Positions 1-6,855 of a stretch of 25,829 bases of DNA are shown here, in pieces. The DNA is from a virus. The notes under the pieces were generated by a model. That model worked only from the letters and a program-made list of their open reading frames with translations. It did not search any database and was not told where the DNA came from. Made by a program: the position numbers and the translations under genes. How positions within the stretch are numbered: position 1 is the first letter of the stretch; the number at the start of each line of letters is the position of its first letter. The stretch lies in the IMG/VR virus record IMGVR_UViG_3300025138_000307, positions 1 through 25,829 of that record; one strand, written 5' to 3'.

Positions 1-469
1 GCGCGATGACTGTGGGGTGGTCAAAACCAATTGGTAACAGTCTGCGAGATGTAGGGCTATCTGATACATAATCTCTTGCCCTTTTTTCAGTAACACTAAG
101 CATTCCGTTTGGAACCCAGTGCATTATAGCACCTGCTTCAATTGCTTGCAACTGATAAGGATGTCTTTTTTCAACGGCACGATCTGCCATGAAGACAACT
201 GCCTTCTTAAAGTATTTAGTACACAGATGTGCCAATGAGATCTGAGCATAACCAGTGGCAGGTGAACTGCCATACACCCACTCCTCGATCTCAGGTTGTG
301 AGCGGATCAGGTGATCTGCGAATCGCATCTTTGATCCACCACCTATGAGGTCGTCACGGACGACGAGGATCCCCTCATGCTCCTCTACAACGGGAGGGGG
401 GAGAGTATCCTTCCAGTAAGGAATCAAGTCTAAGTAGTCTTCTGCTGACGATTCAAATAAACTAGACAT
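1..469 (-). CDS. PLP-dependent enzyme, fold type II (ACC deaminase / D-cysteine desulfhydrase-like), N-terminal part
   Basis: The gene starts at ATG 469-467 and runs off the left edge after 156 codons, open throughout. The start overlaps the gp46 stop as TGATG, with AGGA about 8 bases upstream, so translation is probably coupled to gp46. Residues 34-50 (ILVVRDDLIGGGSKMRF) match the family pattern of an Arg-Asp-Asp-Leu followed by a glycine-rich turn and the PLP-binding lysine, here Lys47. Residues 67-80 (GSSPATGYAQISLA) fit the following Ser-rich helix start that holds the substrate carboxylate, and KAVVFMADR fits the next beta strand. Known members cleave small amino acids such as ACC, D-cysteine or serine. 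The real substrate cannot be read here and the C-terminal phosphate-binding loop lies outside the window. It is not part of the T4 core set, so it is a candidate auxiliary metabolic or nucleotide-modifying gene. Fold assignment is fairly sure; function is not. Confidence 0.7.
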   Translation of the reverse strand, partial: MSSLFESSAEDYLDLIPYWKDTLPPPVVEEHEGILVVRDDLIGGGSKMRFADHLIRSQPEIEEWVYGSSPATGYAQISLAHLCTKYFKKAVVFMADRAVEKRHPYQLQAIEAGAIMHWVPNGMLSVTEKRARDYVSDSPTSRRLLPIGFDHPTVIA

Positions 470-2184
470 CACTTAATCCTGCTGAAGTTGTTCTTCTTTT
501 CGAAGGTCATCGTTGCAGGGAACTTATCAGTAAGTTGATCTGCCTTGTGGCTGATCACGAAGATATTACATTTCTTCCCGAGAGCATGAAGCAATTTCAT
601 AAACTCTTCTGTTCCTATACCGTCAAGCGACGAGTCGAAAACTTCATCGAGAATAAGAAGATTGCAGTTAGCACTATTCTTGATGCGAGCAATCTCTCTC
701 CATGCCAACAGAAGAGCAAGATCAATACGCAACTTCTCACCCTCACTGAAACTCATGTAAGAGAAGGCATCACGATGACGACTCTTGATCGTTTCGTTGA
801 ACTCTTCATCCAAGTGAAACCTGGCAAAGAAGTCCATAGAAGAAAGATATGCATTGATCATCTTATTCATGATGGGAAGATAGTGCTTTATGATCTTCGA
901 CTTTATCCCCGAGTCCTTGAGGAGAGTGTAAGCAATCGATTGTTGATTCTGGACATCAATGATTGTTTCTTTTTCCTTTTCTGATCTCTCACAATCAGAC
1001 TTATATGATGATAAGTTTTCGGTGGACTCATCGAGAGAGGAAGTGTCTTGCGAAGCCGACGATCGCATTTTTTGTAAGTCGGTGATGTGTTTGTTCGAGG
1101 CCGATACTCTACCATTGAGTTCCGTGAGCGACGATTGCTTTTCGGATACGACATCGAGAACTTCGTTGATTTCTTTATTACGCTCAAGAAGGGCCTCCAT
1201 CTTTTCAGTCATTTCATTTAAACCTGTTTTTAACTTACTGAGTTTGTCAGTAATGTCTGTCTCACGTTCTTCGATCAGAGTCTCAGGAAGATCCTGACCA
1301 CACGAACCACACACACTATCATTACGAATCTTGTCAAGATCACTGGTGAAGTTATTAACTTTAGTCTCAACTCTCGACACAATCTTTTCTAGAGACTGAA
1401 TGTCACTTGCATTTGAATGCCGATCGACAATCATGTTCACAGATTTTTCAATTTCGCTGGACAGAATTTCAGACTCAGATTGTAATTCTGTTAGGCTCTC
1501 AACTGCACTGTCGATCTTCTCGTCAAAATCGGCAAGTGATCTTTCACTCTTCTGTCGAATAGAATCAATGTGAGTCTGTTGGATTTCGATCTTATCCTTA
1601 AGGGTTTCGATTGTTCTATTGACTTCCTTGATCTCTTCTTTAGCCACGGACATCTTCTCTTTCAGAAGAGTGTTCATCGTAGAGAAGACGTTGATATCAA
1701 GAATGTCCTCGATAACTGACCGTCGATCTGCCGCAGACAACTGCATGAAGGGAACGAAAGAAGAACTACCAAGAATCACCACCTGAGTGAATGACTTGTA
1801 ATTCATTCGGAGAATCTGCTCTTCGAGCATCTTTTGATAGTCTTTAGATTTGGCGTGCTGATTAATCAATTCGTCGTTCTTGAAGATCTCAAACTTTTTA
1901 GGTTTGAGTCCACGAACAACTCTATAATTATCCTCGTTGACAGAAAACTCTACGTCAACTAAACAATCCTTCTGGTTGATCGAGTTAACCAGTTGGGGGA
2001 TATTGATCTTTCTGAATGGCTTACCAAACAGGGCAAACGTGATAGAATCCAAAAGAGCAAACGATTTACCGTGTCCGTTGTTACCACAGACAAGAGTCAT
2101 CGGTCTCTTATCGAGAAGTATCTCGGTTGGTGTATTACCAAACGATCCGAAGTTTTGGAATATTACTTTATGAAAGTTAATCAC
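469..2184 (-). CDS. gp46: Recombination endonuclease subunit gp46 (Rad50/SMC-like ATPase)
   Basis: This is the ATPase half of the phage Mre11/Rad50-type complex, which resects DNA ends for recombination-dependent replication. The N-terminal half-site has Walker A GNNGHGKS at residues 34-41. It is followed by a long heptad-rich coiled coil interrupted by a zinc-hook CxxC (CGSC, near residue 292). The C-terminal half-site has the ABC signature SFSEGEKLRIDLALL, Walker B NLLILDEVF near residue 510, and the switch histidine in VISHKAD. At 571 residues it is near the T4 protein (560). The start is GTG at 2184-2182, in a GTGA overlap with the gp47 stop and with GGAGG about 10 bases upstream. The next Met is residue 29, too close to the Walker A strand to be a likely start. 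The partner gp47 lies directly upstream. Confidence 0.96.
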   Translation of the reverse strand: MINFHKVIFQNFGSFGNTPTEILLDKRPMTLVCGNNGHGKSFALLDSITFALFGKPFRKINIPQLVNSINQKDCLVDVEFSVNEDNYRVVRGLKPKKFEIFKNDELINQHAKSKDYQKMLEEQILRMNYKSFTQVVILGSSSFVPFMQLSAADRRSVIEDILDINVFSTMNTLLKEKMSVAKEEIKEVNRTIETLKDKIEIQQTHIDSIRQKSERSLADFDEKIDSAVESLTELQSESEILSSEIEKSVNMIVDRHSNASDIQSLEKIVSRVETKVNNFTSDLDKIRNDSVCGSCGQDLPETLIEERETDITDKLSKLKTGLNEMTEKMEALLERNKEINEVLDVVSEKQSSLTELNGRVSASNKHITDLQKMRSSASQDTSSLDESTENLSSYKSDCERSEKEKETIIDVQNQQSIAYTLLKDSGIKSKIIKHYLPIMNKMINAYLSSMDFFARFHLDEEFNETIKSRHRDAFSYMSFSEGEKLRIDLALLLAWREIARIKNSANCNLLILDEVFDSSLDGIGTEEFMKLLHALGKKCNIFVISHKADQLTDKFPATMTFEKKNNFSRIK

Positions 2185-3236
2185 TGACTCAGGGCCTCCA
2201 TATACAATTCACGAATAAGATTCTTGACATCTGACTTATTGGTGATGTCCATACCATCAATTTCGTTATTGATAATAGTAACAGTATCTTGTGCCATGTC
2301 AAGGGCATCTTCTTCAATATCACTGGTGATTACTTCCTCGACGATAGTCACGTTCTGAATATTCTGTTCGTATAACTTGTCGATAAACCGATCGAACGTA
2401 TACGGACTCTTCTTATTTAAGACCAGAATCTTGATATAAGAGTTAGCATAGGAGGAAAAATCCATCGTGTCGATAATCTTTTCAATATCGGTTTCAACAT
2501 CATCGTAGGAAATTTGGTGAAACATACGGCGAGGATTCTCGATAAACTCCAGACTTCGAGTTTCCGTGTCTAGCACATGAAAACCTTTTTTATCATGAAG
2601 ATCATGAAACGTTATCTGATACTGAGTCCCAAGATAGTGGACATTGTTTCTACTGCTCTTGCTGTGGAAGTGTCCTGACAGAACCATTTCAAATCTCTTG
2701 AGATCGCCGTCAGACATACCACCCTCAAACTTATGCCCACGCATCACTTCATAACCATCCAGTTCAAAGTGACCACAGCAGATAGGAGACTTTGTCGTAG
2801 AAAGAAACTTCATAGTCTCTTCTTTGTTTTCCTTGTTGATCCAAGGAACTATTGCAACACTCAACCCACCGAAAACCAAATCTTGCGGTGACTCAATCAG
2901 ATTAAAATTATCGTATCGATCGGCAAACAACTCACGAAGCGAATTGAGTTCATTGGTGTTTCGATAGTATGTGTCGTGGTTTCCAGGCACAATGTGCATC
3001 GTCACACCCATATCACGAAGAGGATCCATGAAACAATTACGCACAGTTCCAAGTGTGTTGAAATTGACAAACTTGCGGCGATCCATAAAATCACCCAAGT
3101 GCAATACGTCCGTAATATTATTTTCTTTCAAGTAAGGAAAAAACTGATCAGTAAAAAACTCTAGGAAGTAATCAAGAAATAATTGATTGTCTCCCCTTGC
3201 ACCAAAATGCGAATCATTTAGTATCGCTATCTTCAT
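2181..3236 (-). CDS. gp47: Recombination endonuclease subunit gp47 (Mre11-like nuclease)
   Basis: This is the calcineurin-like metallophosphoesterase nuclease that works with gp46 in processing DNA ends. All the two-metal motifs are visible: DSH (D8, H10), GDFMDRR (D49, D52), GNHD (N86, H87, D88), GHFEL (H156) and SGHFHS (H189, H191). The 351-residue length fits the T4 family (339). The start codon lies inside the end of gp55 (23-base overlap), with AAAGG 7 bases upstream, so gp55-gp47-gp46 form one translationally packed unit. The last base pairs overlap the GTG start of gp46. The C-terminal part from about residue 230 is the less conserved region expected to contact the gp46 coiled coil. 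I see nothing abnormal in it. Confidence 0.96.
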   Translation of the reverse strand: MKIAILNDSHFGARGDNQLFLDYFLEFFTDQFFPYLKENNITDVLHLGDFMDRRKFVNFNTLGTVRNCFMDPLRDMGVTMHIVPGNHDTYYRNTNELNSLRELFADRYDNFNLIESPQDLVFGGLSVAIVPWINKENKEETMKFLSTTKSPICCGHFELDGYEVMRGHKFEGGMSDGDLKRFEMVLSGHFHSKSSRNNVHYLGTQYQITFHDLHDKKGFHVLDTETRSLEFIENPRRMFHQISYDDVETDIEKIIDTMDFSSYANSYIKILVLNKKSPYTFDRFIDKLYEQNIQNVTIVEEVITSDIEEDALDMAQDTVTIINNEIDGMDITNKSDVKNLIRELYMEALSQ

Positions 3237-3747
3237 TCACAGACCTTTTCTTTTTAGGTTCAAATTTTTCTATATCATTATCACTGACTTCAAAGAAATC
3301 AGCATATGCATTTTTTGCATCTTTTTCGAAGTAATTATCTTTGAACCATTTCATAAAACTACCATCGTCAAGATTTTGCATCATTTTATACTTGACATAA
3401 TTCTGCTTCTTTTCCTTTTCGATGCGGCGAAGAAAGGCATAATATATCATCTGTGTAAAATAAGAGAAGGGGTTTTTGGATTTTTCTGGATTGAAATTGT
3501 GAGCATACATGAGGCAGTTTTCTATACCGTCTGCAATCATCTCATCCCTAAAATGATAGTTTATGAAATTAGGTTTTCTTGAAAGATGCTCGGCGATTTT
3601 AACAAAACACTCTCCGATATATTCTGAGATCGGAGGTCGTTTTTCTTCGCCTGCTTCTTCTGCTTGAATGACTTCAAGTTTCCATTCAGTCATTGCTATG
3701 CAGAATTTTTCGTTGTCAACGTAGTGTTCGGTTTTTTTCTTTTTCAT
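3214..3747 (-). CDS. gp55: Late-transcription sigma factor gp55
   Basis: This divergent sigma factor binds host RNA polymerase and directs it to T4-type late promoters (TATAAATA). The region NPFSYFTQMIYYAFLRRIEK, about residues 97-116, is the hallmark of sigma region 2 in this family. The protein is small (177 residues from ATG 3747) and ends in a Lys/Glu-rich tail that may include the clamp-binding end. A longer reading from GTG 3765 is possible, but its first codons overlap a perfect -10 box TATAAT (3760-3755), so I chose the ATG. No good ribosome binding site precedes the ATG: the leader would be almost absent. The gene overlaps gp47 by 23 bases. Late promoters found before gp22 and gp23 in this window are its likely targets. 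Confidence 0.93.
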   Translation of the reverse strand: MKKKKTEHYVDNEKFCIAMTEWKLEVIQAEEAGEEKRPPISEYIGECFVKIAEHLSRKPNFINYHFRDEMIADGIENCLMYAHNFNPEKSKNPFSYFTQMIYYAFLRRIEKEKKQNYVKYKMMQNLDDGSFMKWFKDNYFEKDAKNAYADFFEVSDNDIEKFEPKKKRSVNEDSDTK

Positions 3748-3790
3748 AATAAGTATTATACTCACATTTCTTGCATTGTAAAGTTTTTTA
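3748..3790 (-). promoter_or_regulatory. Sigma70-type promoter for the gp55-gp47-gp46 unit
   Basis: The minus strand reads TTTACA (3782-3777), 16 bases, then TATAAT (3760-3755). The predicted transcription start, about 7 bases beyond the -10, falls at 3748, one base from the ATG of gp55. The 120-base intergenic region around it is strongly AT-rich, unlike the neighbouring genes, and is one of the few real gaps in the window. This is a sequence match only. Confidence 0.6.
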
Positions 3791-5960: not shown

Positions 5961-6431
5961 TTATGGGTGAAAGATATCGCCGTTAACTTTGACTTCGATG
6001 TTCTTCTTCGACACCTTCCCATTCCAGCATCGAATTATGATACCGTTTGTCTTTAGAAGTTCTTGCACTTCCAGCATTTTCGGCGTTGACCAATCTTTTC
6101 GCCAAATGTCTGCGTACTCTTTATGGAATGTAAAAGATCTTATACCACATTCTCGGATAGCGATTGCGTCTTCTTGAGTAGGAGGAGCGGGACAATACAT
6201 ATCCATTCCCATACAGGAGACACCTCTGTTCGCGGCTCTGAAAAATAAGTTCTGTATTGCAGAACAGCGATACCAATCTTCGCCTTTTAGGTTTTCGGTT
6301 GCTAAAACGATACCAGATCTGCTGTCAAGGATTAGTGCTGAACATTGTGTATCACTTTTTGAGTGAGCCTGACAGTGTGTATATGCGTGTTTGAAATATA
6401 CGGCATGAAGAATGTTATCACTATACTCCAT
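5961..6431 (-). CDS. Deaminase-fold protein (dCMP deaminase-like) lacking the zinc and catalytic residues
   Basis: The overall frame is that of the deoxycytidylate deaminase family. It has an early segment HSKSDTQCSALILDSRSGI, like the family's S-x-D-x-x-x-x-GA-hydrophobic strand, then RAANRGVSCMGMDMY, like the family's AARxGxxxxGxxMY, then DAIAIRECGI, like AxAIxxxGI. However, the zinc ligand and general base motif HAE is replaced by SAI (residues 57-59) and PCxxC by PTQED (84-88), with spacing kept. A working deaminase is therefore unlikely; a regulatory or nucleotide-binding role is possible. I start it at ATG 6431 (156 residues), which has GGAG 11 bases upstream. A longer GTG reading from 6458 would add 9 residues deep inside uvsY. 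It overlaps the uvsY stop by 11 bases. Confidence is good for the fold and moderate for loss of activity. Confidence 0.6.
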   Translation of the reverse strand: MEYSDNILHAVYFKHAYTHCQAHSKSDTQCSALILDSRSGIVLATENLKGEDWYRCSAIQNLFFRAANRGVSCMGMDMYCPAPPTQEDAIAIRECGIRSFTFHKEYADIWRKDWSTPKMLEVQELLKTNGIIIRCWNGKVSKKNIEVKVNGDIFHP

Positions 6432-6855
6432 TGATAAACTTTCTCCATTCGATGGCACTACGGATATTCCATTGTCGGTTATTCATTATCTTAATTACTG
6501 ACTCTAGGTAAGATACTTTTTCTTTGCAGAAAGAGACTTCCATTCTTAATATAGAAAGATCTTTATCCGAATCAAGGTACTTGTCTATATCCGCTTTTAA
6601 GATGTTCAATTGAAACGGTTCCCATCCGAGTGTAGCAAGAGTTTCGGAATCCATTTTGCCTGTGTAATATTCCCACTTGCTACGAATAAGAGACTTCAAC
6701 TCTTCATCTTTTTGGGTGAGACGAAGCCTTTCATCGTGATACATGTTAAGATACTTGTTATGTAATTGTGGTGTTCGCAAAGACTCTATATCGAGTTCTG
6801 TGTCGTCCATTACCATGTCTTCAGAGACCATGGCACGCAGTTCTGTTAAGTTCAT
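6421..6855 (-). CDS. uvsY: UvsY recombination mediator
   Basis: UvsY loads the UvsX recombinase onto single-stranded DNA covered by gp32. The family signature is visible in RSKWEYYTGKM (about 58-68) and in the C-terminal QWNIRSAIEWRKFINGV, which matches the conserved helix that ends UvsY proteins. The length of 144 residues is close to T4 UvsY (137). The middle is helical and charged, as expected for a protein that forms hexamers. The ATG has a strong ribosome binding site (GGAGGT, 6866-6861) and is preceded by its own sigma70-like promoter, so this gene opens the recombination module that continues into the deaminase-like gene and uvsW. Confidence 0.9.
   Translation of the reverse strand: MNLTELRAMVSEDMVMDDTELDIESLRTPQLHNKYLNMYHDERLRLTQKDEELKSLIRSKWEYYTGKMDSETLATLGWEPFQLNILKADIDKYLDSDKDLSILRMEVSFCKEKVSYLESVIKIMNNRQWNIRSAIEWRKFINGV

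Follow-up and report, generated by a model that had tools for sequence, protein, structure and literature searches.

Very few phages are known to have PLP enzymes that act on DNA. In Pseudomonas phage M6, gp52 is reportedly the PLP enzyme of a thymidine-hypermodification cassette, and Lee et al. are said to have described it in 2021 as a decarboxylase acting on a base-linked amino acid. The M6-like phages carry one PLP enzyme among the genes of their thymidine-modification cassettes (PMC9476957). Another type of hypermodification, that of carboxymethylcytosine, is carried out by CmoX/CmoY of Synechococcus phage S-B43; a handle is added, a partner tailors it, and a ParBc protein is often encoded nearby (PMC12783734). 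Among metabolic enzymes, the Ser78-Asn79-His80 loop of D-cysteine desulfhydrase (DCyD) binds the substrate carboxylate, the position of its Thr288 is taken in ACC deaminase by Glu296, which contacts the pyridine nitrogen, and its Thr315 is Leu in ACC deaminases (PMC3344862).

Here, we compare these systems with a PLP gene at the left edge of the window, i.e., the whole stretch of viral DNA that was analysed (25,829 bases, IMG/VR record IMGVR_UViG_3300025138_000307).

Gene Organization and Relatives

The record stops within the PLP gene, whose surroundings are as follows:

1 to 469, minus strand: truncated PLP gene, N-terminal 156 residues (open frame; phrog_7093, E = 2.4e-16; 100% identical stretch in L001)
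242 to 271, minus strand: GSSPATGYAQ loop replacing the QSNH carboxylate-binding loop of ACC deaminase/DCyD (alignment)
329 to 331, minus strand: codon of Lys47, the predicted PLP Schiff-base lysine (K in 55/55 relatives; aligns with DCyD Lys51)
467 to 471, minus strand: TGATG, gp46 stop and PLP-gene start with a 1-base overlap (sequence)
469 to 2184, minus strand: gp46 homologue (a subunit of the recombination nuclease), immediately upstream of the PLP gene (phrog_77, E = 2.7e-163)
2181 to 3236, minus strand: gp47 homologue (phrog_100, E = 3.1e-101)
3214 to 3765, minus strand: gp55 late sigma factor homologue, first of the overlapping gene string (phrog_234, E = 2.3e-55)

The minus-strand frame from 469 to 2 is open to the record edge, with 157 codons from an upstream GTG and 156 from the ATG. 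The preliminary description had placed the start of the gene in the TGATG of gp46, within a unit headed by gp55, and had read the motif RDDLIGGGSK with its lysine as residue 47. Motif and residue number were found as described, PHROG matches back the order gp55, gp47, gp46, PLP gene, and the coupling to gp46 was supported. Elsewhere in the window, a 165-residue ORF (5961 to 6458, minus strand) precedes uvsY; Pfam and PHROG searches with it gave no match, and its Cys/His spacing recalls, by eye, a cytidine-deaminase-like protein.

The C-terminal half of the gene itself cannot be read because the record comprises only 25,829 bases. The fragment query matched 49 IMG/VR loci at 39–100% identity, one of them identical across the fragment length, and the alignment query gave at least 576 relatives. 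This number of relatives discounts a chance ORF, and the frame in the window is a real gene. The full-length relatives are about 255 amino acids long and carry the second half that is absent from the window, with the phosphate loop GSSGTL and the C-terminal PLP-ring residues YDAKAW...WNVG. This half is unbroken in nearly all copies, and neither a missing phosphate loop, nor frameshifts, nor the lack of a PLP fold, any of which would speak against a PLP enzyme, was encountered in the relatives. The exception is a contig shared by L041 and L093, on which an in-frame stop splits the PLP gene (L041:5950-6711), either as a nonsense mutation or as an assembly error.

Predicted Structure and Family Assignment

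Searches of the PDB sequences with phmmer and hmmsearch returned no credible relative, only spurious legumain matches, and therefore a comparison of folds was needed. The AlphaFold2 model from a 55-sequence alignment (mean pLDDT 93.1, pTM 0.91) has, together with the Foldseek results, the tryptophan-synthase-beta-like two-domain fold. Among PDB entries, Foldseek ranked 1j0a, a homologue of ACC deaminase (E 1.3e-11, TMq 0.77), and D-cysteine desulfhydrase highest, and the best 50 of the 380 PDB matches (E ≤ 0.001) were fold-type II enzymes. Judged from the predicted structure, the family of the window gene is one of fold-type II PLP proteins, for which PLP binding is predicted. The fold type proposed earlier was thus confirmed by the model, Foldseek and the cofactor residues of the relatives.

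In the residue numbering of relative L002, whose K46 corresponds to K47 of the window, Lys46, Pro69, Gly72, Ala74, Gly178, Leu180, Tyr232, Asp233, Ala234, Lys235, Trp237 and Trp251 are invariant among the 55 sequences. They include the putative Schiff-base lysine (55/55) and G178 of the phosphate loop (55/55), which is preceded by S/T at position 177 (55/55). Lys46, Tyr232, Asp233 and Val253 align with Lys51, Tyr287, Thr288 and Thr315 of DCyD, respectively, the mapping being a sequence alignment of distant proteins with a loop register of plus or minus one or two residues. By alignment only, D233 (55/55) and V253 (54/55) give the ACC deaminase pattern of an acid at the pyridine nitrogen and an aliphatic residue at the Thr315 position. 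Such an acid near the pyridine nitrogen would be expected to strengthen PLP as an electron sink and to favour quinonoid intermediates. The Ser78-Asn79-His80 loop was not found; the alignment has SPATGYA instead, in which Pro, Gly and Ala are invariant and Asn occurs in 1/55 only, at a variable site. The altered Ser-rich loop that had been noticed earlier was borne out by this alignment, with QSNH changed to GSSPATGYAQ.

Pfam and NCBIfam gave no match for the window fragment, Pfam gave none for the full-length relative, and distant family members match generic PALP only. The sole PHROG match of both the fragment and the full-length relative was phrog_7093 (for the latter, E 2.5e-36, residues 30–254), which is annotated as 'threonine dehydratase'. 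M6 gp52 belongs to the core of this family (2e-159), and hhalign of our family against M6 gp52 gave a probability of 98.3 and an E of 1.9e-14 over 222 columns. A tblastn match in phage SN1 was the annotated PLP enzyme of an M6-like cassette. By PHROG and profile comparison, the window protein groups with M6 gp52, outside the ACC deaminase/DCyD subfamilies. The name ACC deaminase/D-cysteine desulfhydrase, first given to the gene, suits the fold and the residue pattern but does not extend to the subfamily.

In the tree, a T4-like clade A is the sister of a clade B from siphophages and prophages; outside them stand L049/L142 and then M6. The branch of M6 gp52 is long, which makes the transfer of its reaction uncertain. 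Among viral predicted structures, the best match was A0A1P8VV91 (810 aa, 43% identity, TMq 0.87), which from its length and identity is probably the fusion protein of Erythrobacter phage R6L considered below.

The third context of the PLP family, in L049:778-4979 and L142:5880-11049, apparently has two unknown proteins in common. The former has a class II aldolase and a UDG-like gene near the PLP gene, and the latter has thymidylate-synthase-like and kinase-like genes. It looks like an undescribed hypermodification cassette.

Methyltransferase Partners in Two Phage Lineages

In clade A, the next gene encodes a protein of ~526 residues with an N6_N4_Mtase domain (E 8.6e-7) and the motif TSPPYF (P0002-type). 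The two genes usually overlap by ATGA, the methyltransferase gene lying downstream, which for the window would be past its left edge. This T4-like partner matched phrog_12517 at 4.7e-10, and Foldseek found generic class I methyltransferases only. The 14 long T4-like records with the PLP gene all encode a P0002-type methyltransferase of one lineage. The two genes are far apart in G010, both in one record, and no partner methyltransferase stands beside the PLP gene in L108, L118, L121 and L125, of which the last has one elsewhere in its record.

The converse relation is looser, as the PLP gene is near 30 of the 77 methyltransferase loci of the T4 lineage. It accompanies 40 of the 80 loci of the ParB-associated lineage, where it is nearly always adjacent. 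Because about half of the methyltransferases in either lineage lack this PLP gene nearby, the gene is optional. Among 84 dereplicated clade A methyltransferase clusters, a sample enriched for PLP genes since the PLP search had supplied many of its loci, this PLP gene was found in 45, a phrog_3650-like PLP gene in 5 and a GNAT acetyltransferase in 12, and none combined two of the three.

The phrog_3650-like protein (L208:5058-6002, L220:5066-5968, also L207, L223 and L227) is a different fold-type II PLP protein that is distantly related (PF00291, E 1.5e-13). It takes the same slot preceding the methyltransferase and has the YEAKA...FWxVGR C-terminus in common. In L156, L173, L175, L188 and others that lack the PLP gene, a small GNAT-like acetyltransferase is encoded next to the methyltransferase, in the slot after gp46, and may be a tailoring enzyme of another kind. 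A glutamine synthetase gene (Gln-synt_C, E 4.2e-22) was also observed between the PLP and methyltransferase genes (L027:6753-7820, also L026, L043 and L088).

The clade B PLP gene either neighbours a related ParB-associated methyltransferase gene or forms part of it as a fusion. The pair occurs in several gene orders and orientations, tail-to-tail included. Fusions were seen in three records, namely Erythrobacter phages R6L (L051) and ZS04 (L052), where the PLP domain is inserted between motif I and motif IV of the methyltransferase, and L235, where it is fused at the methyltransferase C-terminus.

Other genes were noted around this lineage. In R6L and ZS04, a phosphoadenosine phosphosulfate reductase-like gene lies a few genes upstream of the ParB-methyltransferase-PLP fusion. 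A PP-loop/QueC-like protein (L239:6821-7843) directly follows a ParB-lineage methyltransferase, replacing the PLP gene. We also weighed a serine-kinase activity of the ParB/sulfiredoxin neighbour but set it aside, as ParB domains often accompany phage DNA methyltransferases that have no PLP gene (PMC12783734).

Proposed Function

DNA base modification is the best explanation of the locus because context and homology point to it together. We consider it probable that the PLP enzyme, as a member of the M6 gp52 family, tailors a base modification of phage DNA with its methyltransferase-like partner. The involvement of the PLP gene in DNA modification is, from context and homology, well supported, while we infer the chemistry (decarboxylation or another quinonoid reaction) and the transferred group. 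The AdoMet-dependent partner would make the first modification on the base, and the PLP enzyme would then work on the amino-acid-like group of that base. The reaction might be a decarboxylation, as the M6 end product demands of the M6 pathway, or another one through a quinonoid. The modified phage DNA may be protected from host nucleases. Among the roles that had been proposed for the gene at the outset, DNA base hypermodification gained support from the M6 gp52 family and from the methyltransferase partner in two phage lineages, whereas amino-acid or sulfur salvage received no positive support.

A more detailed version of this pathway is attractive but speculative, and we consider it unlikely. 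The partner would move an amino-acid-bearing AdoMet group (e.g., 3-amino-3-carboxypropyl) to the amino group of a base; decarboxylation or reworking of that group by the PLP enzyme would then yield an aminoalkyl base. GNAT or other enzymes would then be alternative tailors in sister phages.

The main alternative is that the gene is an auxiliary metabolic gene for an ACC deaminase/DCyD-like enzyme that would use a free amino acid for salvage or to supply ammonia, pyruvate or sulfide. The best structural matches are indeed such enzymes, a glutamine synthetase gene adjoins the PLP gene in about five clusters, and in L118 its neighbour is a gene for an aspartate/ornithine carbamoyltransferase. However, the window protein belongs with M6 gp52 and escapes the Pfam and NCBIfam models, its substrate-carboxylate loop is replaced, and the linkage to a DNA methyltransferase, fusion included, is repeated across unrelated phage backgrounds. 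We regard a metabolic role as unlikely.

Alternatively, the PLP fold might have no catalytic task and serve the methyltransferase as a partner or specificity subunit, such as a target-recognition domain. In alpha-class methyltransferases, the recognition domain lies between motif I and motif IV, which is where the Erythrobacter phages have their insertion. On the other hand, the cofactor residues are invariant in 55/55 sequences, half of the same methyltransferases do without the PLP gene, and the slot can be occupied by a GNAT acetyltransferase or by another PLP protein of fold type II, so this possibility seems doubtful.

That the PLP and methyltransferase genes are unrelated passengers in an insertion hotspot between gp46 and gp45 is very improbable; GNAT, glycosyltransferase-like, glutamine synthetase and sugar-dehydratase genes do occur there as well, but the pairing is seen again in siphophages and prophages of a different genome plan, in several orders and as fusions, and is kept in G010 despite the distance between the genes. 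Some neighbours may still be passengers, since the slot between gp46 and the methyltransferase holds unrelated genes too.

If the tailoring of a base modification is the true function, a separate route of DNA decoration that bypasses 5-hydroxymethyluracil would exist in many siphophages and in marine T4-like phages by the hundreds. The gene, which is commonly annotated as 'threonine dehydratase' or 'ACC deaminase', would belong to DNA modification and not to host metabolism, and a short, testable gene pair would be at hand for finding a new base.

Comparison with Described Enzymes and Pathways

The family resembles ACC deaminase and DCyD in fold, PLP lysine, phosphate loop, stacking Tyr and an ACC-deaminase-like acidic residue. 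It differs from them in being ~70 residues shorter, in its replaced QSNH loop and in its gene context.

The clade B partners belong to the group of the ParB-associated phage methyltransferases phrog_498/phrog_12517. These are regarded as ordinary DNA methyltransferases, and the literature searched described no PLP partner for them. Our literature search did not find the PLP-methyltransferase pair described, a mention in Lee et al. 2021, Lee et al. 2018 or Iyer et al. 2013 being possible.

With CmoX/CmoY, the locus has in common the scheme of a methyltransferase-like enzyme plus a tailoring partner and a ParBc protein that is often nearby. CmoX, in contrast, is a C5-cytosine enzyme that works with an ATP-dependent ligase, whereas here an SPPY-type enzyme is paired with a PLP enzyme. 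A carboxy-SAM route was unsupported, as CmoA gave no match above the TIGR00740 cut-off in the records searched.

An M6-type 5-hmdU pathway was expected in the T4-like records, and its partners were not found there. The amino acid:DNA transferase ADDT (PF18724), the helical domain of the 5-hmdU kinase (phrog_2396) and the thymidylate-synthase-like hydroxymethylase (PF00303) went undetected in the 14 long T4-like records, which are possibly incomplete; as a positive control, the same searches detected the M6 partner genes in M6. Radical-SAM was present among the T4-like records in G010 only. The two systems differ in their partners, which in M6 are ADDT, the 5-hmdU kinase, a radical-SAM enzyme and the hydroxymethylase and in the T4-like phages the methyltransferase. 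The PLP enzymes themselves are alike in full-length profile homology, the PLP lysine, the same missing helix region, the phage setting, the PFPxxPxYDxKAW...FWNxG C-terminus, the Asp at the pyridine-nitrogen position and the same Asp/aliphatic pattern.
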